A DNA stretch of 64,000 nucleotides from contig JAQGDQ010000038.1 of NCBI GenBank assembly GCA_030141605.1, positions 248,001-312,000 of the forward strand. The letters are read 5' to 3'. The notes below the pieces were generated by a model, which saw only the letters and a list, made by a program, of their open reading frames with translations, searched no databases and was not told the origin of the DNA. This document shows positions 9,586 to 46,313 of this stretch, piece after piece. Both the position numbers and the translations under genes were made by a program. This stretch comes from Tubiluchus corallicola. Its lineage: Eukaryota > Priapulida > Priapulimorpha > Priapulimorphida > Tubiluchidae. The number at the start of each line of letters is the position of its first letter. Position 1 is the first letter of the stretch.

Positions 9586-12500
9586 ATGGGTAGTGAAAAA
9601 AACAGAGCCAAAATTGTAGAGTTGCTGAACAAACCAGGGAATAATGAATGTGCAGACTGTGGTGAACAGGGTAAGGAATTTAAAGTTATAAGAAGTTTAC
9701 TTTCTTGTATGCTTGGAACAGGCTATGTAGGATGCTTTTCTATTTTATCTTTCAAAGGAGAAGAAGCCTTATGGGCTTTTTAAGTTAAAGGCGGATATAA
9801 GCCCTTTTCAAATACCATTTCGAAGTGTTTGAGAAGTGTACTATATATACCAGAAGTGTACTACTAGTACTATAACTAAATAAGCAAGCTCTCGGTTAAA
9901 TTTGATGCAGTATATTGAACTAGTCAGTGTGTAGTCCAGTTAATAATAATCATAATTATACTAATTAATATGAAGTTTTGCAGTACCTATTACTGCTAGC
10001 AAGTATCATTGGGCAGCCAAAATTCACTCAGTTTGATTAATAATGTAATTGCAGTAGTCGATCTGTATCTCATAATAGCCAATATAACTAAGTAGCAGTA
10101 CATCAGTTTTATATATATATAATTGATGTGCTGCTCTACTACATATATATGTATGTATGTATGTATGTATGATAGCAATCTGTAGTTCTACCTGTATATA
10201 ATTTTCTTTTTGTACTTGCCAATGTGTGTAATGTTAATTGCATATTTGCACAAAAAATTAAATTGAATTGAATTATAGTCATATTATGAGCCTTGTTCTT
10301 TTCATTTAATTTATTTTGACGAGCACTATGCAGTTATGTCTGATAATTACAAAATAAAGTAAACTTGTTTCTATATTTTACTATAATAGCGTTTTTGCTC
10401 TTTTCAGCGATGTAATTCTGATCAGACATTCACAGGTTAAGACATGAAGCTTATATTTGGCATGTTACTGTCGAAAAAAAGTAAACAGTGTTATTTCAGA
10501 TTCCAGAAACCCATTTTCCCTGCTACTGTTATGGGCTGCCATAATATCTCTCATCTGCTGGGTTATTGTAGTAGTTTCCTGAGAGGTATTTTTTAACTTT
10601 CGACGAAGGAAATCTGAGGCCCACTGCCGACATCCGCAATTTTTTTGCACTCTGCTACAAAAACCATCAGCAACAATGCATGGCATTGTGGCCTGCCCAC
10701 AGAAAGTGCAATTTTCTAAATGCACTTTTTAAATGATGAAATTTCTGGCGCACTATTGTCTCATTACTGGTAGAGTAAGTGGTTCTGGTATTCATTTAGA
10801 TAACTTTTAAGCTTGTCAGTGTTCTCTTTTTATAAAAGGAACTTAGGAAACCTTATTAATAACGGGCTGAGTAATTTTACTGAAGAACATCTTTTCAGTA
10901 ATTCTAAAGATTTTTTCACACCTGTGGTTATTGCACGTTTGGTAGAGAATGACCCAGATTTTGCTAAGTACACTTCTTGATGTCTTGAATTTTTGAAGTT
11001 GGTATTCCTACAATATGGTTAATATATATTAGCAAGTCGTATAGCATGTCATTATAACATTAACTATTGACATTTGAATGATTGATTATGGTATTTTTAT
11101 TTACAGCATTACTTGTTTGCACTAAGTTCTCCCAATGGGCTTACGATGTAGGTAGGCCTGGTTTCTAGAAGCATAGATTTAATCTTTGTTATCAGTAAAA
11201 TAAATACAAGTCCATGCTACATTTTTCTAACTAGTAGTATTTAGGCCGGGAACTGTAAGTAACTTTAGGAGAAAATGTGTGACGGAATTTTGATTTGTAC
11301 AGCGGTGTTTCATCGTGCCCGTAACTGGGTTGATATCCATAGTTAGGTCTTATGGCATAGTCGTTACTTGCACTGTAGCTAGGTTTCGAATAATAATCAT
11401 TACTCGGGGTGTCATCATAGCCATAGCTCGACTTCGCTTTTTGACCACGTCTATTGTATAGTGAAACAGAACTACTAATGTGTTTGTGAACTGGTTTTGC
11501 ATTATATCCATAATCATCCTTGTCGTCATATCCATAACTTGGTATGCTGTCATATCCATAGGTAGGCTTGATGTCGTCATAGCTTGGCTTAGCTTCATAT
11601 CCATAACTTGGTTTAATGTCATATCCATAATTCGGTTTAGTGTCGTATCCATAGTTTGGTTTAGTGTCATATCCATAACTCGGTTTAGTGTCATGTCCAT
11701 AACTTGGTTTAGTCTCGTACCCATAACTTGGTTTAGTGTCATATCCATAACTTGGTTTAGTGTCATATCCATGAGCTGGTTTAGCATCGTATCCATAGCT
11801 TGATTTATAGTCATAACTTGGCTTGGTATCATAGCCATAACTTGGTTTCGAATCATATCCATAACTGCCCTTATTGTCGTAACCATAACTTGGCTTCGTA
11901 TCGTATCCATAACTGTTCTTGGTGTCATAACCATAACTTGGTTTTGTATCATGTCCAGAACTGCTTTTGGTGTCATAGCCATATCCATGTCTAGGCTTGG
12001 TGTTATATCCATGTCTAGATTTTGCATTGTAAGTTGACCTGGGTTTTAGGTCAAGACCATAAATAGATTTTGAATTGTATCCAGTGCTAGGTTTTGCTGC
12101 ATATTCGTAGCTTGGCTCGATGCCATATCCATAATTTGGTAGTGCTTCATATCCATAGTTAGGTTTGTCGTAGCTGTAGCCTGCTATTCCATGCCCTCGA
12201 CCATGTTTGGAGTACCCGCGAGAACTCGGTCTTCCTGAATATTGTTTAGGCGGTCTGTACCCATAAGGCAATCTGCTGTCGTAGCTACTGCTTTCATGAC
12301 TGAAATGAATTTTATTGTTATTAATTAGTGCAATTAATCTAGTGGAGTTAAACATTTGAAATTTTATATATTATTTACTACTTTTAGTCTCCTGGTCAAT
12401 TAAATTTTGCTTTGAGCATTTTAAATTGAAATGCAAATCTGAAATTATGTGAAAATACTTAGTCGTTAACTCATTTCCTGCTAGAATTTTCTAGTTAATA

Positions 12501-14560
12501 GTGTTTAACATATATATATGTATATACATTGTTGTGGCATAATAAATAAAGTAATACTGTCTGGGTCCTATTAAAAATTATGAAAGCTATTGTGACATAA
12601 TAAATAAAGTAATACTGTTTGGGTCTTACTAAAAGTTGTGAAAGCTATTGGGGCATAATAAATAAAGCAATGCTATCTGGGTCCTACTAAAAGTGGTAAA
12701 AGCTAATGGGGCTTAATAAATAAAGTAATGCTATCTGGATCCTATTAAAAATGGTGAAGCTATCTTTTAGTAGTTTTGTAGTTATTGCTTGGAATTTTGC
12801 ATTGCGATGTGTGTGTGTGGAATAATTGAAAAACTTGCTTCTGCTAGCCAGCTACTATTAGTCATGCTCTTCAGTGGCTACATTGTTCATACCGTAAGCC
12901 AACGACATAAAGCAGGGAGCAGCTTGGGTTTAGAGTTTATTACTAATAGTAGCTAGTAAATTAATATTTTTTTGCAGTACACGACACATGTTGAATGTGA
13001 AGTGATTTCTATCCAAGCCAGATTGTATTTGAGAAGGCAGTGTTAATCGAGTACTTAGTTTGCTAGTTAGTAATATGGCTTACAGCTCACAATTCAAAAA
13101 ATAAATGCTGTACCCTATGCAGACCCGAAAAATTCGGAACCCCTGTGATTATAAGCTTGTTCAATTTCAATTAGTATTTGATGTCACATATTTTGAACAA
13201 ATCTTTTATGTACAGTGGACAGAGTCTGTGTTAAGTTAGGTTTTTAATGAATTTTCATATCAGAGCCTTTGAAATTTATGCGTAATTTACTCTTACCCAT
13301 TAATTGCCGGATAGTATGGAGAACCATTGTGTCCACCATAGTCTTGTGCATTTACCTGGAAGAAAGAAAATTATAGCTTGCAGATTTAATTTTGCACAGC
13401 TTTAGTATTTTTTCCTCAGTTTAGTTTATCAATTTTCTTCTCAGACCTGTGTAACTAGGTAAAACTTTATACTTATGTTTCTACTGTCTATTATGTAATC
13501 AGTTAATTACTTGTTGTGGCTTTTACAAATTACCATGTTTAGCTTGTTTATTGTAGCCACTCCTTTTAATCTATTTAAAAATGGCTAACATTGCCTTTGG
13601 TGCCAGTCTTAAACTCAATTTTGAAAATAAAACCTTATGGGCTTATTATTCTGACTACTTTCAAGAGAATTTTAATTTTAAAAGGCTTATGGCTTGAATT
13701 ATATATTCTGTTCCTAAACTGCTGAGTGTTATATAATTTGCACTGGTGTGTTGTAGACTTAATTACACAATAGGTCACACGTTTAATATAATGCCATTTA
13801 ATTTGTCTGCAGAAGTAGTGTATGATGTATGTTTAATTATATAAATTTGACTCACCAGAAATAGTACCCAGCATAAGCTGACTGTTGTTTTCAAAATTTC
13901 CATCATAACACTGCTTGAACTATCACACCTAAAACAATGAGATTCACGTTGTCACTGTTTGCATGGCTTGTGGAGAGGTGAAACAACACGCATTCTGTTA
14001 TATACCTGTGTTTTCCGCTTCTCTTTTTGACCTACTTCATCTAATTAATGCTGTTACATAATTAACACATTATAGCTTAAATAATTTGTTGAACCCTTAC
14101 AGTAGGGCTGATCCAAGCTGACATTAGTGTTTAGTGAAGCATAATTGGAAGGTAGTAGAGGAAGATCTAAAAACTTCGTTTCTTCTAGGAAACATGTGTA
14201 GTGTTTTATTACAGTATTAATGTTATTTTTTTACTTTAAACATACATTTTATAATACTTACTACAAAATTTGCCTTACATTATACTTCTGCCTTGTACTT
14301 TGAGCATGCTGTAATTTGTTGTGTTCCTCCATTAGCTTAATGGTTGTATCTGAAAGCATTAAGCATTTATCTGTCTAGAGTAACTATTTTGGCAACAGAT
14401 GAAGTAAGAACAGTGAATGCAGCTGTGATGTTAATGCCCAGGTTAGATTGAATTGGATTGGATTAGATCACAATAGATAACAGAATATTTTAATATGGAA
14501 CGTGTTGTAAAGTGCAGCTGAATATAACTGAACTTGTACAAAATTTTAGTACTTCAAATT

Positions 14561-14595
<35 letters not shown>

Positions 14596-17500
14596 TAATA
14601 ATAAGCTTAGCAACAGTAGCGACGAACATAAAAGCAGCATTGTAGTGGCAGCAGTACGTGATAGTGAGAGCAACAAGAACAAGAGCAACAACAAAACTGG
14701 GGTTACTTAGCCAGTTCTCATTATATTTGCATTAAGACTCATTTAGTTGCTTTATTTTAGCTCAATGAAAGTTAATTTCATATCATATCATGTTCTATGT
14801 CCTATATAGGTAAATTGTCTTTCGTGTATGATGTTTAGTCAGGCCTGTATTTAAATACTCATAATGGAATAACGTATATAAGCATATTTAGTTGCTCATG
14901 TAACATATGTAGGAATGTAATCTTTAAAATTTATTCACGTACATACTTATAAAATACACACTTATAAATGCTATATTGCTTATTTGTATTTGAATAGCAA
15001 CAAAATTAATAAAATTACTCATCTGGAATCAGTTTACAGTCTTTATTTGGTCTGGTCCAGTGCCTTCTGAATTTTTCTGCTAAAACACTGAACAGTTTTC
15101 ATTGCTAGTTTGAAATTGTACCTATGCAATTCTAAACTAAATCTCTGTAATACATTTTGAAACAAAGACGTTTCAGTCATTTAAAAATCAGAACTGCTTT
15201 CTCAAACGCCTACATGTGCTATCAAAGTTTTTAATGTTCATTAGACCAACTTGTGTTTTTGTACCTCTTAAATAAGGGCATCTTTGTTATACCATTCTTT
15301 GTTGTTTGCCTTTCATTACGAAAGTGAAACGGTTATGACGTGAGTGATTGTCGGTGGATTAAGTACGTTGTTGGTTAAACGACTAATCTGCTACCCAATA
15401 GTCTGTAGAACAAAGGTGTATATTGATTAAATTTAGTTGGTAGAAGTTGCAAAGAATTATACTGCATGCGAAGAAATGATTAACAAACTGCAATTTGGCA
15501 GATTATCCATGATAAAGAAATGGTTGTTTAGAAAGTAAAAGTATTTCATCAGCTTTAAACTTGGAACTATCTACTGCACTATGACTTTTGAATCTGTCTG
15601 TCATTTCCTTGACAGGTTAAAAACAGATCATATTTTATGAGGTATTTCACCTGTTTCAGCTGTTTAGACTTGTAATATTTTGTTTGAACAGGTGTACTTC
15701 CCATCATAAGACTATTGCAGAAGGCAGAGTTGAATTGAATAAACATAATAAACACTGTTTAAAAGCAATAATGTTTTATATAAGAATGTGTTCTGGAAAA
15801 TTTGTGCACTTACTTCCGGGTAGCTATTTGTCAATACTGTTTAATATTAAATTTTGTGACTGGTTAATGTATTTAGGAATACCTAAACATAATTCATGCA
15901 TAACCACTCTTACTTGTAATCTTCTTTTGCCCAATAAGATGTTCTACAAAACTTTCTCAAGTCATATTATGTAAAAATTATTTCCAACTTTCTCTTCTGG
16001 AAACTGCTCATAAACTTACTAAGTTGTTGAATGCATCTGAAATGTTAACAACTCAGATTTTTCAACAATTAAACTGAGCTGTCAGCATTTTAATTTTAAT
16101 AGCAATTGTAATTTAGAATATTTGCTTAAGTGCTCGAACAAAAATCGATTTAAAAGTTAATAGCACAGTTTCAGTAGTAAATGCGTGATATACTCCACTG
16201 ATTTAATAGATTGTTTATTTACAATTTTATAGTGGATAAAATATTTGAAATAAGGCTTATTGCTACAGATTTGATTTGCAAAACACTAAGATTTAAAGCT
16301 GCAGTAGAACAAGAATCATTGTTAATAATTAAAGGAAATGTGTATTTTGTTTATATGACTTTCTTACACTAAAGTTTACAGATGCTTATAATCCTGTTTT
16401 GTTAGAAATATCTCTAAGAGATATGTTAAGAAACCACTTTGCTTTCATTAACACTGAGACATTTGCGCACGCCTGCTGTGCTCCCACCATGTGGTGGAAT
16501 ACAATTTTGTATGTTCATTTTTACAATATTAGGGACTCCATTTATTAAAGTCAGTTTTGCCTCAAATTATTCGTAAGCTACCATTTATGGAAACGGGTAT
16601 TTTTGTAGTGCCCTATGTTGAAGTGACATGACTGGAAACTGGATTTATGGTGTGATGACGGCTGAGTAGGTGCGTGCTTCCACATGAGTGGCTTGTGGCT
16701 TTACCTGATTGTTCCAGGTGGAATTATTTGTAAGCCTTGGCTGTTCACCTCATAGAAGGAGGATAAGTGCATCTGAATATGGCTGAGATACCTCTACCAG
16801 TTCAATGGCTTATCTTATATACGTTGCCAGTGAACCAGACTTCAGTCATGCCACATACATGTTATTGTATATTTCATGCTTGCATGCTGGATTCCCACTT
16901 TAAATAAATATTTCACTGATAGTGAAATATTTTGCTGATTTTAATATTGTTTGTATCTAGCCCAGCTTATGGTAATTACATAATTTCTCTATGCCGTACT
17001 GCATTTTGCAAAGTGGGTTCTGCAGCCTGCAGACCAGCCCTATAAGATATGATTTTGGCTGGACTGGGACTTCCTTTGTTTTCGAAGATAGTCCTCTAAG
17101 GTGAGTTACCGAATTCACATAAATGTCCTAGGAATGTTCAGGGCAGTATTGGAAACAATATCAACTTGAACCAGTTTTCTTTGTAGCCACTCACTCATCC
17201 ACACTCCCATCTCTTTTGCCGTCCCCAAAACTTCAATTATTTCTATATTACAATTACTAAAGAACCAATATTTTTTATTTTTCAGATCCAGATTGGGCAT
17301 CATATAATATTGGCATTTTTCTCTGTACAAAATGTGCTGGTTTTCATCGAAATCTGGGTTCACACATTAGCAAAGTAAAATCTTTGCGTTTAGACAAATG
17401 GGAATATCATCAAGTTGAAGTAAGTACATGTATGATGACATTAATGTATCAGCGAAATTTTTAGCAGTGGTGGAGTCGATGCATTTCACCAATATTGCAT

Positions 17501-28618: not shown

Positions 28619-30708
28619 TACACATACGCAACAAGAACCTAGCTGATTATTAAAGACAACGGAGTGTCTGTGCGTACAATTGCAGCTGTTTTTCTTTTCC
28701 TCAGCAGTGAATTGATGATCAACCATATAATGTATTCTTTTAATGATGTGCAGCATACTTTTGCGTCCAAAAGTCGATAGATCTTTCATGCAACGAAGTT
28801 AAAAAACTTAACTGTAGCCATAAAACAGTTCTTAACCTGATCCGTGGGCCATGTGTACTATGAACAAAGTACTGCCTCAATTGAGAAATACCTTTTACAA
28901 AAACCAATTCAAAGCAGTCACAAATGAAATAGTTCCACTTGTGTGCAAAAAGTTTAGTTAGTAGTAAGTGACTGACTAAAAGTAAATAAACACAACAAAT
29001 GAGCTGAAGGACATTGAATATTTACAGTAATTTAGCAGGGTTCCCAAATTGCCAATTGGACTTGATGGATGTGTAGTCTGCATACATGTGTATAACTGAT
29101 AGAATTATAAGAACTTAGTTATGATGACGTGCATACACTGGCATATATGCTATTTTCTAGGCCTTGTCAGTCCTAATAGAATGTCCGCTGCATTTGATGG
29201 TTTATGAATAGCTCTTTACATTGTCTCTGATGCTGCTTCCTCTATGTACAGTTAGACATTTCTACTTCCTATAATAACAAGTGTAAATTACCTCAAGAAA
29301 AGTATTTTTTCCATATCTGGATGACGCTTTGTACTCCATTCTGTAACAGTACTTTGACTAATTTCCACCAATGCTCAATTTAGTTACAAATTTTTCTCAT
29401 TATTGCAAGTGACAGTACTACATTTTAGATTTAGCTGATAACAGCTGCTAATTAAGGAGCTAGGTCTTTTAGTAAAGGAATCGAGTTCATAGTACTGGCA
29501 ATTTTGACAATTTAAAACATCAATAATGTAATAAGGATGGTTATGGATGTTGTTAACAGTTATTTATTACCACTTTCAGATTATCATGCATGCTTTTGTT
29601 TTGTATGTCAGAATATCCCGGCAGGTATCCCCAAAAATTATAGTTTTGCAGCCACTCGCTTTATTACGACTTTGACATAGGCCTACCTCAACTGATGAGG
29701 CTTAGCCGACTAAGAATTGAATTTAATTAGGTATAATCTTATTGGTCCCCTTGTTTAAAAATGTCCTCGAGTTATAATGGGCACATGACATCGTTGGTCT
29801 TTTTGTCTTGTAGCCTATTTATTTATTACTACTTGGGACTTAAAAAGAGAAAAATTTCCGACCCAAATAATAATAATGTGAATAACATTTACTGTCAATA
29901 TCTTATCTTATTTCTCAGGTGTAATTAGGCATCCAGAGCAAGACCGCAAGTAGTCTCATTATGATGTATATAATCCTTTAGAATGAAATACTGTGTCACA
30001 ATTGCACTCAGAAGTTTACACATACTTGCTTAAAAAGAAAAAAAACAGTGAAACTAAGAAATGAATTTCCAGATGGTGGTGACCCGTCAAGTCACTGATC
30101 ATCTTTGGCACAGCTTAACTATAGCCAAGCACCCTGGGTACAGAGTGAGATGATTAAAGGCATCCTCTTAGAAGTTATTGGTTACCTCCATTGTAGCTCC
30201 ACACACATTGCAAAGTAAAAAAAATGACAACCAAGGCAACTAGTCATAGTTGTAACCTCAAACTAAAATTGTATAGTAATTTTGTGATGCAATCTCAGGC
30301 TTCGAAGTTCTTGTGTTACAGTCTCATCCCAGTGCCAATGTTAACATGTGTGTGAACGTGCTTCAAAAATGCATGTGCAAAGTACCATGCTTTAAGCATA
30401 TAAAAAGAATCCTATTTGTTTTCCAGCTGCTTTTTTGATGAAACAGGGAAAACAGCATGGGTAAAAAAATTATCTAGCCACTTTGAACTAGTTTCTAGTT
30501 GTTTTTGCCTAAACATATAATTAGTAATTAGACATTTTCAGGTCTTGAAACTTCTCTTAGATTGATGTCATAGATAGATGACACATTATCTAATTTATAA
30601 TGTCTATGTTTATAATGTCACATTTAGTCTGTTATATAGATACATAATCTGTGTCTGTGTTCAAAAGTGTGATATACAGCGCTATGTTTATTGCAGGATA
30701 AATACAAT
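28619..30708. other. Intergenic before ZNF277, no gene supported
   Basis: A minus-strand open frame at 28598-28789 overlaps the MITE end and has no motif. The plus-strand sequence TTTATTGCAG at 30687-30696 just before the ZNF277 start looks like a splice acceptor, so a 5' UTR or short upstream coding exon of ZNF277 may lie in this stretch. I could not identify it. Confidence 0.4.
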
Positions 30709-32004
30709 ATGGATGCTGTACTAGAGCCACTTAGCTTTCCCACTGAATCTATGGAAGAAGTGACAAAGGAAACTTTTCGTTCATATGATTGTGTTTTGTG
30801 TGACACAGCATTTGATTTTGAAATGAAAGATGAGTTGTTTAAGCATTTGCTGTCCACTCACAAGCTTGTTATAGCAGATGTGCAGTTGGTGGCTGACCTG
30901 GGTTGTTACCTTCATTATTGGAAAAACCGTTTTCGACAGGACGAATTGACTAAGTTCTGCACTGTCATACAGACAAATAGCAATGAGTCAGACATCGGGG
31001 AAAGAGAAAATTACTATCTTTTATGTGACTCACTGCAAGAAGATAAAGACATACGAGAAAAATTACAAAAAGATAAACTTGTGCAAGTTTTAGAACAATT
31101 GCAACTTGAGAGAGTAGATAAAAATTTCTCCCAAAGTTGTTTGTTTTGTAAACATCATACATTTTCTGATAAAGTGGAATGTCTAAATCATATGAAGCAA
31201 GAACACAGCTTTAATATTGGTCTGCCAGATAATATTGTGTTTGTGAATGAATTTATTAACACCCTACGAGAAAAACTAGAAAAACTTCAGTGCTTATATT
31301 GTGAACGTACATTTAAAGACAAAATGGTTTTGAAAGAGCACATGCGTAAGAAAGGACACAAGAAAATTAATAATAAAAATACATTTTACGACAAATTCTA
31401 TGTTGTGAACTATTTGGAATTTGGGAAAAACTGGGAGGTTGTCCAGAAAGAAGATGATGCACATTGTACAGAAGATGCTGAATGTTCAGATGCTGAATGG
31501 TCAGATTGGCAAGACAAAATTGCTGGCAAAGCCATCTGTTTGTTTTGTGATAAAACCTTTGAGTCCGGGGATGAAATTTTATCACACTTAAAAGTGGAAC
31601 ATTTATTAGATTGGTGTGAAATTAAAACTCGGCTAAACCTTTCATTTTACCAACAAATAAAACTGGTAAATTTTATTCGACGTCAAGTTCATCAAAATAG
31701 GTGTGTTTACTGTGACCTAAGGCATGACACGAGGATTTCTTTGTACACACATATGATGGAAAAACACCATTTCGGCAAGATTCCGGATATTCCTATTTGG
31801 GATCAGCCACAATATTACTTTCCAACATATGAAAATGATAACTTGCTATGCATGATAAGCAGTATGGACCAGGAAACAAGTGAAGAAAATCCAGTGTTTG
31901 CTGAGGACCCTCCAGACATTCTAATCAGTGAAAGTATTTTGGAATCATTATGTAGTGATGGTGATGCTGGTGTTGCCGAGCCATTACAGTTTTCTGCTCA
32001 TTAA
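30709..32004 (+). CDS. ZNF277: ZNF277-like C2H2 zinc-finger protein, intronless coding region
   Basis: The frame from ATG 30709 encodes 431 aa (human ZNF277 about 450 aa). The start is the first in-frame ATG after a stop at 30670, and the sequence before it looks like a splice acceptor (TTTATTGCAG at 30687-30696), so an upstream exon may exist. Near the start is VLEPLSFP, matching the vertebrate ILEPLSLP. Five C2H2-type fingers are visible at about residues 28-51 (CVLC...H..H), 144-166, 193-216, 280-301 and 334-357. Highly diagnostic blocks are NIGLPDNIVFVNEF, LQCLYCERTF, FYQQIKLVNFIRRQVHQ and YYFPTYENDNLLC. Known biology of the family: a nuclear/cytoplasmic protein that associates with ribosomal protein uS5 and with the Polycomb factor BMI1. 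All fingers keep their Cys and His ligands. Confidence 0.95.
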   Translation: MDAVLEPLSFPTESMEEVTKETFRSYDCVLCDTAFDFEMKDELFKHLLSTHKLVIADVQLVADLGCYLHYWKNRFRQDELTKFCTVIQTNSNESDIGERENYYLLCDSLQEDKDIREKLQKDKLVQVLEQLQLERVDKNFSQSCLFCKHHTFSDKVECLNHMKQEHSFNIGLPDNIVFVNEFINTLREKLEKLQCLYCERTFKDKMVLKEHMRKKGHKKINNKNTFYDKFYVVNYLEFGKNWEVVQKEDDAHCTEDAECSDAEWSDWQDKIAGKAICLFCDKTFESGDEILSHLKVEHLLDWCEIKTRLNLSFYQQIKLVNFIRRQVHQNRCVYCDLRHDTRISLYTHMMEKHHFGKIPDIPIWDQPQYYFPTYENDNLLCMISSMDQETSEENPVFAEDPPDILISESILESLCSDGDAGVAEPLQFSAH

Positions 32005-33832: not shown

Positions 33833-34909
33833 CAATTTGAAGATGTGCTGCACAGAGAGTGCATTGGCATGTCAAAGAAAGCGTATAAAGCGGTAGGCAC
33901 AGCAAGTGCATTAGTTATAAATGACACTTTGCACTGGTTTTGCGGTAAGTGCGAAGAAGAAGTCAAGAAGATAAAGGAAGGCATGGGAATGCAAAAAAAT
34001 ACACAGCTGTTGAATGAAGTACAATTAGGAAATCTAGAGGAGGAAATGAAATGCAAAGAAAGAGAAGTAGAAAATTTGAAAGATGACTTAGAGAAAATGA
34101 GGCAAGAAGTGAATAAGAAAACGGATCAATTGGCTGAGTTTGACTTAAAGAGAAAGAAATATGAAAGTGAAATAAAACAGTTGAAAGAAGAAGCAGTGCA
34201 ACTCAGACAACAACTAGAAAAATTGATAAGTGAGGCAGCGGAAAATAGAACTACAGTAAATAGCCTAAACAGGCACATAAGTGATCTACAAAAGATAAAT
34301 GAAGAATTGTTGATGAGCAAAATGGGTATGGGAGGAACATATGAAGAGGCAAAAGAAAACAATGAATCTAATAAGAAGGAAGATGATTCCAGAAAAGAAG
34401 TACAGAGTCAAAGAGAGGAGGCAGAGCCTGATACGCCACTATGCAGATATGTTGCAAAAAATGTGTGGTGTAAATTTGAAAACAGATGCAAGTTTAGACA
34501 CTACAAAACAAAAAAGGAGTGTCAAGAGCTCAGTGAAAGTGCACATAGAGCCAAACAAGGAGAATATGAACAAAAGTTGTGTTCCTATTTTGGAAGGAAT
34601 AAATATTGCAAATTTGAAAGCAAGTGTAGGTTTAGACATTATTTGAAACCTGGGGAAGATAAGGAAAAGACAAATTTGTGTTGGAATTACAAGTATGATG
34701 GTGAATGCAAATATGGTAGTAGGTGCAGATACAGACATTTTTTTAACGATGATGAAAAGAGATACCTACGAACACAAGAACGAGAAGGACAGCAGACAAC
34801 TCTAGAAACAAATAAAAATGAACAAAAGACACAAAATGAAAGTTTAGTTGAGCAGATTAATTTTTTAGTGAGAGAAATCAATGCAATAAAAGAAAAACTG
34901 TGGAATTAG
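33833..34909 (+). pseudogene. LINE ORF1: PHD-like end, coiled coil, three CCCH zinc fingers (5' truncated)
   Basis: The open frame follows a TAG at 33830-33832 and has no initiating ATG. The N-terminus reads LHRECIGMSKKAYK ... LHWFCGKCEEEV, the second half of a PHD finger (H-x2-C ... W-F-C-x2-C); the first zinc ligands are missing. Next comes a long Lys/Glu/Leu/Gln-rich coiled coil (about 34000-34330). Three CCCH fingers with exact C-x8-C-x5-C-x3-H spacing follow, at about 34440-34502 (CRYVAKNVWCKFENRCKFRH), 34578-34640 and 34678-34740. A polar tail follows. In LINEs ORF1 usually forms the RNA-binding particle protein; CCCH fingers commonly bind single-stranded RNA, so that role is plausible. 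Apart from the truncated start the frame is intact. Confidence 0.8.
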
Positions 34910-34947
34910 AAAAAAAAGTAAGAGTGAAAAGATCTCAGAAAAAGTAA

Positions 34948-37900
34948 AAGAAGTTTAAAAATTTTAATGTAGTATATACAAATTGTCGAGGGCTAAATAA
35001 TAAGCTAGAGTCATTGTATGGAGTGATAAGGGAAAAAAGGCCTAGTGTAATAGGAATTGTTGAAACTCATTTGGGGGAAGAAGAATCAGTGCAAATTGAG
35101 GGTTACAAAGTGTTCCAACTGAATAGAAATAAGTACGGAGGGGGGATATTATTGGCAATTAAAAGTGACTTAAAAAATGTAACAATAAAAGCTGATCAGT
35201 ATAATGAAGTAGGTGAACAATTATGGGTTGTAATGGATAATTCAAAAGTAAAATTGAGAGTAGGATTATTGTATGCACCTCAGGAAAGTAGGACAGATAA
35301 AGAAGAAATGAAGAAAATGTATGAACAAATACGTAAGCAAGTACAAAAAGCAAAAAATGAAAACCAGAAGTGCTTGCTTATAGGGGACTTCAATGCAAAA
35401 GTAGGAAATATTATCGAAGGTAATAGTGATGAAATAACTTGGGCAGGGAAAATGTTACTAAATCTGGTTAAAAAAGAAAAACTAGTAATATTAAATGCAA
35501 CTGAAGAATGCTCAGGAATTTGGACAAGAGAAGAAGCTGGGAAAAAATCTGTTATTGATTATATAATAATAAGTGCAAATGATGTAAATGCACATAGGTT
35601 CACACTTGTTGATGAACAAAAACTGTATGGAGTGTACAGAGTGACTAGTAGTGGTGAGAAAAAAATTGTATATACAGACCATAACACAATATATAGTGAA
35701 TTTGATTGGGTTGAGATTAGTAAAATGAAAAGAGATAAAAGTGATGAGATAAAAAAATTAGTAGTGTCTAATAAAAATAAAATGAACAGATACAAAAAAG
35801 AAACTGATGATCAAATATTTAGTAAAGTATGGAGCAGTAACAGATCAATTCAGAGCAAATATGATGGCTGGATAAATCAAGCTGCAGTAGTAAGAGACAG
35901 GTGCCTTTCAGTAAAAGGAAAAAGGAAACAAAAATATGGAAGTAAAATGTCAAGGAAGCTAAATAAAGTAAGTTAAAACGTGAAATGAGCGATGAAGAAG
36001 ACTCGGAAAGGAAAAGAATGATAAAAATAAAAATTGAACTAATAGAAAACATGATGAGGGTTGTGCAAAGGAAGGAACAAATAAATAGAATAAATAAAAC
36101 TGTTAGGACAATTACAGTAAATGGAAAACTTAACCAGCAGTTGTTTTGGGAATTCAAAAAGGGCATCGATAAACCTAAAATGGAAGAAGCTATAGCAATG
36201 AGAGATAAACAAGGTGAGATCCAAGAGGATCCAGGAAAAATTAAGTTGATTTTTAAAAAATATTATGAAGAACTCCTACTCAGACAGAGGATGAATATGA
36301 GCAAATGATAGAATCAAGGGTTGAACAAATTTTCAAACATGTTGAACAAATGGCAAGTGAGGAGGAAGTAAAAGAAATTACTAACAGTGAAGTGAATGAA
36401 GCAGTTCGATCACTAAAAAATAAAAAGGCTCCAGACATGCAAGGATGGAAGAATGAAATGATCAAACAAGCAGGGAAGGGATTTATTGATAGTATAGCAG
36501 CAATGCTGAATGAAATAATGAAGCAAAAGAAAATACCGAAACAATGGGCCCAAATGAAAATAAATTCAATTTATAAGGGAAAAGGCGACAAGAAAGAGAT
36601 GAAAAATAGACGAGGGCTGTTCATAACAAATATTTTCAGTAAACTAATGGAAAAAGTGATCAAAAATAGAATAATAGTTAAATTTGAAGAAAACATAGGA
36701 GTACATCAATGTGGCGGAAGAAAAAACAGAGGGGTCTATGACCATCTGTACACCTTGAGGGCAATGTTAGAGTATAACAGGTTTTATAAAAATGAAGTGT
36801 ACATAATTTTTTGTGACATAGAAAAGTGTTTTGATAAGTTGTGGTTGAAAGATGCATTGACAGAATTATGGAGGATGGGCATATCACCAGGAGAAATATT
36901 TATGATATATAAACTGAATGAAATTGCAGAAATAGTTATAGAAACGCCATTGGGAAAAACAGACCAGATAGAAATAAATGAAATAGTCCGACAGGGAACA
37001 GTGTTGGGACCATTACTATGTTGTGCTGCAATAAACCGGATTAATGAGATGGTGACAACAGGGACTGTAATGGGCAGGAATATACATGTGGGTATGTTAT
37101 TATTCATTGACGATATTGTCGGAATAGGACAAGAAACTATAATCAAGCAGATGATTAAAAACTGTCAAGAAATTGAAAGAACCAAAAGATTATCATTCAA
37201 TATACAGAAAACACAATATATGAGAACTAACATGACACGAAAGAAAAGGATCCCAGAATTATGTGAGTCACTAAGGAACGGAGAGGTTAAGGAAGTAGAG
37301 GAATACCAATATTTGGGAGATTGGATAAATACAAAAGGTAGTTATGAAATACTGTTTGGAAAACGAACCGGGAAAAACAAAATGATAATTAGTTACATCA
37401 ATACAATAGGAGGTGAGCTGAAAGTGGGAGATTGCTCAATAGGGGTAAAACTAATGCTGTACGAGCTTCTTTCAGTGAGTGCAGTGCTAAATAGTTCTGA
37501 GACATGGTCAAATTTGACAACAACTGATTGGGAGAAATTAGAAATGATTCAAGCAAATGCTTTAAAAACATTATTTAACCTTAGTGAATCAACGCCATAC
37601 TGGGGATTAGTAACTGAAATAGGCATATGGCCTCTAAAACATAAAGTAAACTATAGGAGATTGATGTTCTATCGGAATTTATTGATTAGTAAACCAAAGA
37701 GATTAGCATCAGAGATACTCGAAATGCAAATAAACAGTGTACACAAAAGGTCATGGTATAATGAAGTATTTGAGACTGCAAAAATATATACCATAGATGC
37801 TAATAAAGAAAGGGTGAAGGTCATGAAAAAGTCTGAATGGAAGAAAGAAATAAAGAATAAGATTGAACGTTGTATAAAGAGCGAATGTGCAGAAAAATGC

Positions 37901-38266
37901 AGGAGCAGCACTAAATTAAGATTTTTAAGGCATACCGAGTGGAAACGACAAAATTACATAGACACATGCAAGCCAGAAGAGGTTAAAGATATATTGAAAA
38001 TAAGACTGAATATGATTAAAGTTAAGGGGAACTACAAGAATGAGTTTAAGGATCAGTTATTATGCCCAGTGTGTGAGGAAGATGATGACACTACTGAACA
38101 TATGCTTAGATGTTACAGATATGGAGAATGGAAAAAAATTTTGAACTCGGAAGTATTAATGAACAGTGAAAAGGAAGGATTGCTAGAAATTAGAAATCTA
38201 GTGAACGAATGTATGGAATACAGGATAAAGACAAATAAAGACATTAAACTTGGAAAAGACAAATAA
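34948..38266 (+). pseudogene. LINE ORF2: APE endonuclease, reverse transcriptase, C-terminal zinc knuckle; two frameshifts
   Basis: The endonuclease part (about 34948-35976) shows NCRGLNNK, the catalytic Glu motif in VETHLG, GDFNA near 35386, DYIII and TDHN near 35676. The frame stops at 35976; similarity continues in another frame at 35985-36290 and in a third from about 36290 to 38266, so at least two single-base-type indels break it (about 35965-35976 and 36270-36290). The reverse transcriptase has FCDIEKCFDKLW (about 36811), VRQGTVLGPLL (about 36990) and the active-site box LLFIDDIVG (about 37097-37120), where Ile replaces the usual Ala of FADD. A C-terminal cysteine/histidine knuckle is at about 38062-38113 (CPVC ... 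TEHMLRC). The RT frame from 36305 is 653 codons without a stop. Confidence 0.88.
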
Positions 38267-45100: not shown

Positions 45101-46313
45101 CAAGTATTTGCATTTTCAGAAGACAGTTGTTTAGCTTGCGCAGTGACAGTATTTAATTTTACTAATTAAGCACACTAGTGGGGAAACTGAGCTAGCTTTA
45201 CATATTTATTTCCTATGTTTCTCTTTGTATTACTTTTTGTAGTGCAATTGTTTGTGTATATTTCGATATTATTCTGCACAGTCTATACAGTAATACTATG
45301 ATATTCATCAAATCTATTGTATATTTATGAATCAAAGAAAAAGACATTTTAAGAAGCAAGCTGGTTATAGAAGACATACAGAATGTATTCTTATAAAACG
45401 TATTATAGATGATAGTATATTTTCTAGTCTTATAACTGTATTTGTTAAGTAAGTGTACTGATATGTGCAAGCTAACTTCATTCAAAAAAGTTTTTTCCAA
45501 ATTGATTTTTCCAAAGTGAAGTTATATGTGAAGAAATATTTATCAATTTCAGCTTTTAGCATTATGATCATCATTGCTGCAATACGATTAGCCCAAGGAA
45601 AGGGTAGAGGAAATCCAGACACAGTTAATTTACCTGGATTGCCAACCTTATTTGGAGTTTGTGTTTACTCTTTTATGTGTCATCATTCTCTGCCATCGCT
45701 TGTTACACCTATCAAGGAGAAGTCACGATTATATTTGCTATTTTTTGGAAATTATATCTTGATATTATTCTTTTACTTACTGCTGTCGATAACGGCAGTT
45801 TTTACTTTTAGTAAGTTAGAGGATTTGTATACATTAAACTTTCAACCGTCAGGGAGTCCGGATGCTATTATTAACATAAAGTTTATACAATACTTTCTAG
45901 CCTTATTTCCAGTATTTACACTTAGTACAAATTTTCCTATTATTGCTATCACATTACGAAATAATCTGAAAACCCTTTGCTACAGAGAAGGTCGTCGATA
46001 TCACTGGTGTTTAGACAGAATATTATTTCCATTAATAACTCTAATACCGCCAATTGGGGTTTCCTTTATCACACACAATTTGGAATTTCTAGTGGGCATT
46101 ACTGGATCGTATGCTGGAGCAGTAATACAGTATATAGTGCCAGCTTTACTTGTTTACTATGCAAGACAAAATGTAACCTTAACTATTGGGTCTGGCATTA
46201 AAAATAAATTCATCTCTCCTTTTAAACATCCTATTTGGATTGTACTTATACTAATGTGGGCAGCAACTTCTGTCCTATTTGTAACAGTTAATCACATTAT
46301 TCAAAAAAAGTGA
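39170..46313 (+). CDS. TMEM104: TMEM104-like multi-pass membrane protein, ten exons, complete
   Basis: Exons: 39170-39220, 39439-39560, 40207-40291, 40858-40951, 42247-42308, 42877-42907, 43221-43320, 43770-43887, 44326-44419, 45553-46313. Phases join to 505 codons plus stop (human TMEM104 is 496 aa). The N-terminus has DITETGSLYS and the signature VFNLIVGTGALTMPKAF. Later blocks are FVIESMASANAMLRWKRMQ, KRIEMGQMTSLFFNK, YLYGDLAIYAAAVPKSL, NVQKTKYLQL, LFGVCVYSFMCHHSLPSL and PVFTLSTNFPIIAITLRNN. The many hydrophobic segments fit the amino-acid/auxin-permease-like fold; the substrate of this orphan transporter is not known to me. Exon 4 is ended by the GTAAGC donor at 40952; the GTAAGT at 40900 would put the next exon out of frame. 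The extracellular-type loop in exon 8 is Ser/Asn-rich and variable. Confidence 0.95.
40952..42246. other. TMEM104 intron 4, with hairpin at its centre
   Basis: No exons seen. At 41863-41885 TTTACAGAC pairs with GTCTGTAAA around AGCAA, followed by an A/T and TTTG-rich tail (TTGTTTGTTTGT). This could be the 3' end of a SINE-like element beginning somewhere after 41690, but no second copy exists in the window to confirm it. Confidence 0.4.
44420..45552. other. TMEM104 intron 9, no gene seen
   Basis: AT-rich intron. The open frames in it (44782-44979 plus, 45213-45500 minus) have no motif and no splice support. Confidence 0.5.

Follow-up and report, generated by a model that had tools for sequence, protein, structure and literature searches.

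Byssal proteins of the quagga mussel are reported to contain octads, namely DKYPGGGN and PKYPGGGN in Dbfp1 and YPTYPEKK in Dbfp2, with tyrosine (Tyr; other residues are likewise given by their three-letter codes) contents of 14.7 and 23.2% and Lys contents of 12.3 and 17.7%, respectively (PMC6474901). Hydroxylated prolines and 3,4-dihydroxyphenylalanine (DOPA) are known from mussel foot protein 1 (Mefp-1) (PMC4275877). In trematode eggshell proteins, Gly is described as often following Tyr, and DOPA-quinones as binding Lys (PMC2758302). Here, we analyzed a stretch of 64,000 nucleotides (nt) from contig JAQGDQ010000038.1 of Tubiluchus corallicola (the window), which contains a three-exon gene on the minus strand (the repeat gene). 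Its predicted product (the repeat protein) starts with a signal-peptide-like segment and continues with tandem units of SYGYDTKP. We favor, with a probability of about 0.6, the reading that this is a secreted cross-linked structural protein of extracellular matrix or gland secretion.

The octapeptide array as coding sequence

The repeat protein carries 28 non-overlapping octads with at least four of eight matches to SYGYDTKP (residues 84-369; four of them exact), where a first description made without database searches (the sequence-only reading) had given about 25 units behind a signal peptide. By comparison, 300 shuffles of the mature sequence gave 3.0 such octads on average and seven at most. 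The consensus residue is kept in 26 of the 28 octads for Gly3, 24 for Tyr4, 23 each for Tyr2, Lys7 and Pro8, 19 for Asp5 and 12 for Thr6, the least conserved position. Tyr fills two of the eight consensus positions, which agrees with the quarter estimated in the sequence-only reading, and makes up 19.1% (71/372) of residues 21-392, next to 14.0% Ser, 11.3% Gly, 9.7% Lys, 9.4% Pro and 8.3% Asp. Tyr residues are mostly spaced by two and six residues, with Gly next in 26 cases and Asp next in 19. The statement that Tyr is always near Lys and Pro was slightly too strong: Lys lies within four residues of 53 of the 71 Tyr, and not of all.

Many 24-nt minisatellites with accidental open frames occur in this genome and, therefore, the coding status of the repeat gene was tested directly. 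Such minisatellites were seen on contigs C535, C1579, C161, C2136, C2, C2172 (110300-112700), C1822 and C2197, with frames open over about 150-850 codons; some 24-nt units are common to several contigs. Such open arrays are a source of false repeat-protein calls. For instance, the open frames read SHLYSFKL on C161 (852 aa), YSFKPSHL on C2136 (416 aa) and CSKRTFFI on C535. Repeat units (26 distinct ones in the target array) were aligned without gaps and then compared. The ten control arrays, with units located at any offset, were chosen by us and consist of nine minisatellites and one further Tyr-rich array, L019 (see below). The nine minisatellites are not independent, L007 and L008 on the one hand and L003 and L005 on the other sharing their unit, and represent about seven unit families.

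In the coding frame of the target, the ratio of nonsynonymous to synonymous differences per site (pN/pS) is 0.33, with a pS of 0.73 and zero stops, and the other five frames give 0.57-1.49. Several of nine control arrays are also low in some frame (0.28 for L012, 0.38 for L005, 0.43-0.50 for L008); the L017 array, with four distinct units, gives 0.00, and open-frame values are 0.50 for L008, 0.53 for L012 and 0.58 for L019. Hence, pN/pS alone was dropped as the decisive test and a third-position test with controls was used instead. In the coding frame, third-position variation is in excess by 0.239 (permutation P = 0.002), whereas both remaining forward frames have a negative value (P 0.95 and 0.88); the nine minisatellites give P values of 0.42-1.0 in their own open frame. 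Furthermore, 43 of the 66 single-base codon changes relative to the consensus (65%) are synonymous and 23 nonsynonymous, against 0-34% synonymous in the nine minisatellites. A binomial P of 7e-16 was not relied on, since the units share ancestry.

No codon-frame bias is expected of a 24-nt minisatellite, and the target departs from that null. Since its third-position excess is restricted to the coding frame and its synonymous share lies above those of the minisatellites, the array is most readily interpreted as a coding repeat that is conserved by purifying selection and is old, with near-saturated silent sites. The competing explanation would be an intronic 24-nt minisatellite that is open by chance, to which unrelated pieces from further upstream had been joined by eye. 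The target period of exactly 24 nt fits this explanation, as do the long accidental frames and the low pN/pS of some control-array frames, but the frame-restricted signal does not, and the units are much more diverged than those of the minisatellites (mean heterozygosity 0.32 vs 0.04-0.16). The Tyr-rich non-repeat flanks of the array are also open, and splice sites and a signal-peptide-like start stand ahead of it, so that we regard a chance frame as very improbable. For genomes laden with repeats, the comparison provides a usable rule by which genuine repeat proteins can be told apart from minisatellites that happen to be open.

Gene model, relatives and genomic context

Joined in frame, the three exons give 1179 nt, that is 392 aa and a stop (Table 1). 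The complete three-exon gene proposed in the sequence-only reading was recovered at base resolution, with the same junctions (13856/13355 and 13297/12299). Exon 1 ends at a GTGAGT donor (13855), exon 2 is preceded by a TTCTTTCTTCCAG acceptor and followed by a GTAAGA donor, and TTCATTTCAG is the acceptor directly before exon 3 (12299). With approximate splice matrices applied to a 2.9 kb region (125 donors, 184 acceptors), both sites of intron 1 rank first (1/125 and 1/184) and the second donor ranks third (3/125). Among 489 open models that were enumerated, 16 have a hydrophobic stretch ahead of a (-3,-1) site. The 12 top-ranked models all contain the same exon 1 and differ mainly in the acceptor of exon 3, the best being 12255; their score includes a signal-peptide term, and the shared exon 1 is thus partly built in. 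The model of the sequence-only reading came ninth, with a signal peptide and repeat identical to those of the models ranked above it.

A hydrophobic core at the N terminus is followed by V-x-A at (-3,-1) and then by Gln-Asp, which by this simple rule makes the N terminus signal-peptide-like. Since Cys is found only in residues 1-13, as are all Trp and Met, and cleavage is presumed between VNA and QD, the mature chain is predicted to be free of Cys. For residues 21-392, the computed isoelectric point is 9.0 and the mass 42.3 kDa. The TATATAA word upstream of exon 1 is weak on its own, with four further TATAWAA words in the scanned stretch; there, AATAAA also occurs three more times, in each case upstream of exon 3. 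In a stretch as A+T-rich as this one (G+C of the window, 33.7%), words of both kinds are common.

Two exons of a gene labeled ADAP flank the repeat gene on the opposite strand and, therefore, the repeat gene lies antisense within ADAP intron 1 (9671-17285, plus strand), as had been claimed. The label is based on the ArfGAP domain of exon 2 and on a presumed likeness of exon 1 to human ADAP1, which we also take to extend to open frames near 19.0, 20.2, 21.0 and 22.0 kb; these look like the two PH domains.

No match to the repeat protein was found in Pfam-A or among PDB sequences at E up to 1. Furthermore, no relative was confirmed among four pattern matches in viral contigs and 21 in bacterial and archaeal genomes. 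A literature search returned no string of the GYDTK or YDTKP type; SYGYD occurs in six papers, of which five deal with collagen, judged by title, and one is irrelevant. Hence, the SYGYDTKP unit, described as unfamiliar in the sequence-only reading, is new to Pfam, PDB and the literature searched.

In a search of the T. corallicola genome (343.5 Mb) with the protein, for which 105 of 273 first-look candidates were scored, at least 69 matches had an E value of 0.001 or less. Exon 3 itself accounts for one of them, and another overlaps with exon 2; among the matches listed, none other covers the ends of the protein, all falling in query residues 81-356, its low-complexity part. Seventeen loci around matches (L002-L018) were translated; 24 matches, spread over 14 contigs (C1594, C628, C1310 and C49 among them), lie outside this set. 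L014 and L015 have no Tyr-rich frame at the cut-off. L011, which lies within L019, has the look of a genuine coding repeat; the remaining loci are by eye tandem arrays, several of them open in more than one frame. A 210-nt DNA query covering promoter and exon 1 matched only itself in this genome and is therefore single-copy. No second copy of the repeat gene was thus found in its own genome.

The nearest in style is L019 (C2172:138702-140384, minus strand), a candidate second Tyr-rich repeat gene and the one further coding candidate among the loci translated. Its open frame of 561 codons reads GYGSRPDT octads and then units of the GYGxRADG type. Like those of the repeat protein, these octads combine Tyr, Gly, Asp, Thr and a basic residue followed by Pro; unlike them, they have Arg for Lys, and the identity is 35% and limited to the low-complexity part. 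In L019, 19 of 34 single-base codon changes are synonymous and the third-position test is not significant (P = 0.19). Within the locus (C2172:138700-146000), frames upstream of this one may belong to it as further exons. No Pfam domain was found in the three L019 open frames scanned; two of the upstream frames had looked LamG-like by eye, a reading that was dropped, as Pfam gave no match.

Table 1. Features of the repeat gene, its host gene and the rest of the window (positions in the window).
Feature	Position	Strand	Remarks
Repeat gene, exon 1 (coding part)	13856-13906	-	17 residues; ATG at 13906, second ATG at 13903; start and h-region of the signal peptide
Repeat gene, exon 2	13297-13355	-	20 residues, the final Gly codon being shared with exon 3; cleavage site presumed here; Tyr-rich mature N terminus
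Repeat gene, exon 3	11231-12299	-	Tyr/Lys/Pro octad array, then less regular C terminus; TAG stop ending at 11231
Core 24-nt tandem array	11525-11983	-	Tandem Repeats Finder, 19.5 copies
58-nt tandem repeat	12532-12763	-	four copies, 86% match; within intron 2 of the repeat gene
TATATAA, candidate promoter element (TATA-box-like)	13998-14004	-	its last base precedes the first ATG by 92 nt
AATAAA, poly(A)-signal-like word	11096-11101	-	about 130 nt past the stop
Host ADAP, exon 1 (coding part)	9586-9670	+	28 residues, reading CADCGEQ up to a GTAAGG donor
Host ADAP, exon 2	17286-17419	+	Pfam ArfGap, 70 bits
Open frame with zf-C2H2_2 stretches	30673-32004	+	single frame of 443 codons, three stretches, apparently intronless; presumably ZNF277-like
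LINE-like (long interspersed nuclear element) element in pieces	33833-38266	+	three CCCH zinc fingers 33833-34909, endonuclease 34948-35976, reverse transcriptase 36269-38266
Open frame with Aa_trans match	45462-46313	+	amino acid transporter; presumably TMEM104-like

Possible cross-linking of the predicted protein

The layout of the repeat protein, with a signal-peptide-like start, no Cys and two Tyr and usually one Lys-Pro per unit, resembles that of proteins that are cured after secretion, as in glues, tubes, shells and egg cases. The open spliced model and the conserved unit are visible in the sequence; transcription, secretion, disorder, oxidation, cross-linking and the material itself are inferred, as follows. 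After cleavage of the signal peptide, the basic mature chain, which is probably disordered, would leave the cell as a precursor that is either soluble or coacervates. Its Tyr might then be oxidized, either by a tyrosinase to DOPA and quinone or by a peroxidase to dityrosine, and oxidized Tyr would couple to each other and to Lys, once per unit. The product would be insoluble and may serve as an adhesive, a tube, a cuticle, an egg case or a skeletal matrix.

Ten tyrosinase exon matches were detected on four contigs of the genome, some of which we take to resemble vertebrate-type tyrosinase, and five lysyl oxidase (LOX) exon matches on C2110 are consistent with one gene. These genes show that the cross-linking chemistry is available in the genome, and nothing more; the lack of a match in this genome is no proof of absence. 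The gene set is that of an animal, and tyrosinase-type PF00264 genes, which arthropods are not known to have, speak against an arthropod. Further searches of the genome gave no match for Chitin_bind_4 or Glyco_hydro_6, whose controls did not respond either, so that absence is not shown, and none for COX1. Codon patterns for neuropeptides gave no hit for FMRFGKR, one for an anthozoan-type RFamide, which does not encode the peptide, and three for a medusozoan-type RFamide, with no tandem array (L027 was read as DNA and L028 in translation). Two of the tyrosinase stretches, L023 (C957) and L025 (C1918), are nearly identical, introns included, in frames translated and compared by eye, and could reflect a recent duplication or unmerged haplotypes.

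Several points weigh against the favored reading. The protein-coding gene is a prediction from DNA sequence. The acceptor at 12300 is weak (rank 44/184), and open models are also obtained with in-frame alternatives at 12255, 12339, 12276 and 12273; therefore, the start of exon 3, and hence the length of the protein, is uncertain by up to about 15 residues either way. The signal peptide was called from hydrophobicity and the (-3,-1) rule and disorder from composition. Moreover, tyrosinase and LOX genes are widespread in animals and give no pointer to the repeat protein as a substrate, and Tyr/Gly/Pro-rich chains can also act without cross-linking.

This last point leads to an alternative in which the Tyr-rich protein is secreted into a matrix, mucus, biomineral or silk-like material and works without oxidative cross-linking, either through non-covalent contacts (cation-pi interactions and hydrogen bonds) or as a binder of mineral or chitin. 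Cross-links are invisible in DNA and the alternation of Tyr with Lys and Asp in the unit is compatible with such a role, but Lys beside two Tyr in 23 of the 28 octads and the lack of Cys suit oxidative curing at least as well; we hold a purely non-covalent material to be unlikely, though a serious alternative. A signal-peptide-like start followed by tandem units is also what a neuropeptide-like precursor would show, with one small secreted peptide released per octad. However, two basic residues adjoin only once in the chain (residue 320), a Gly-dibasic amidation site is lacking, and 20 of the 36 Lys stand directly before Pro, which hinders trypsin-like cutting; a precursor of this kind is hardly credible.

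A further possibility, missed in the sequence-only reading, is that the repeat protein is a multivalent LOX substrate, its SYGYDxKP unit mimicking the cross-link site of the collagen alpha1(I) N-telopeptide. In this telopeptide (LSYGYDEKSTG), Lys is reported as the LOX cross-link site, and an undecapeptide with DPK was the most suitable LOX substrate of its series, with Asp at i-2 (PMC5932954). Six of the eight residues of SYGYDTKP recur in SYGYDEKS, which is part of the telopeptide pGlu-LSYGYDEKSTGISVP (PMC5932954), and Asp stands at -2 for 18 of the 36 Lys of the repeat protein, as in the substrate preferred by LOX; these 18 sites are, however, largely copies of one ancestral unit and not 18 observations. 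LOX would convert Lys to allysine and tie the chain to itself or to collagen, Tyr serving recognition instead of or besides DOPA chemistry. LOX enzymes are reported in barnacle adhesive (PMC8371367) and, as indicated above, a LOX gene is detected in this genome. On the other hand, the match was found by accident in the literature search, is short, of low complexity and post hoc, and the isolated telopeptide is described as binding collagen only at millimolar concentrations (PMC5932954). We therefore treat the resemblance as a testable idea and not as a result, and consider a role as LOX substrate rather improbable. Slightly more doubtful still is a dual-cure polymer, in which about 28 telopeptide-like LOX sites would give each octad both tyrosinase-type (YG) and LOX-type (DxK) curing.

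If the LOX reading were true, one octapeptide would hold two cross-linking chemistries, and a telopeptide-type motif outside collagen would be directly testable; dual curing would also imply that LOX hardens a matrix that is neither collagen nor elastin. If, as we favor, the repeat protein is secreted and cross-linked, SYGYDTKP, a unit absent from the libraries searched, would enlarge the so far few natural polymers that cure through Tyr and Lys, and it is simple enough to be made and tested as a peptide.

Comparison with known structural proteins

At the threshold used above, Pfam-A gave neither the trematode eggshell synthesis domain, whose model we take to be present in this library, nor Chitin_bind_4, the R&R chitin-binding domain of arthropod cuticle (0 Pfam families in the repeat protein). 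The likeness to Tyr/Lys structural proteins is one of design, without homology detected in Pfam or PDB, and the interpretation given in the sequence-only reading is plausible. The sequence-only reading had recognized the layout of DOPA-type adhesive and structural proteins: the resemblance in layout and composition stands, but the unit differs and no homology supports it in the libraries searched.

By the same simple rule for the signal peptide, the repeat protein combines the start and the tandem Tyr/Lys/Pro repeats of the Mefp-1 and dreissenid foot protein 1 kind. In Mefp-1, a signal peptide is likewise followed by short Tyr/Lys/Pro repeats; its unit is a decapeptide, whereas that of the repeat protein is an octapeptide, with Asp in most units. 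With the collagen alpha1(I) N-telopeptide, the repeat protein shares SYGYDxK and the Asp two residues before Lys (PMC5932954), but collagen has one such site per chain end against 28 related octads here, and no triple-helix sequence is present, so that the two would be convergent at best. The trematode eggshell proteins P14, P19 and P48 are similar in being Tyr-rich precursors in which Gly often comes after Tyr (as for 26 of 71 Tyr in the repeat protein), and Lys is described there as the cross-link partner of DOPA-quinone (PMC2758302). Finally, the dreissenid foot proteins (Dbfp1/Dpfp1 and Dbfp2) are secreted, as is predicted for the repeat protein, and like it are rich in Tyr, Lys and Pro and built of octapeptide tandem repeats according to the published account (PMC6474901), and differ from it in their unit, which in SYGYDTKP contains Asp and two Tyr in a YGY spacing.

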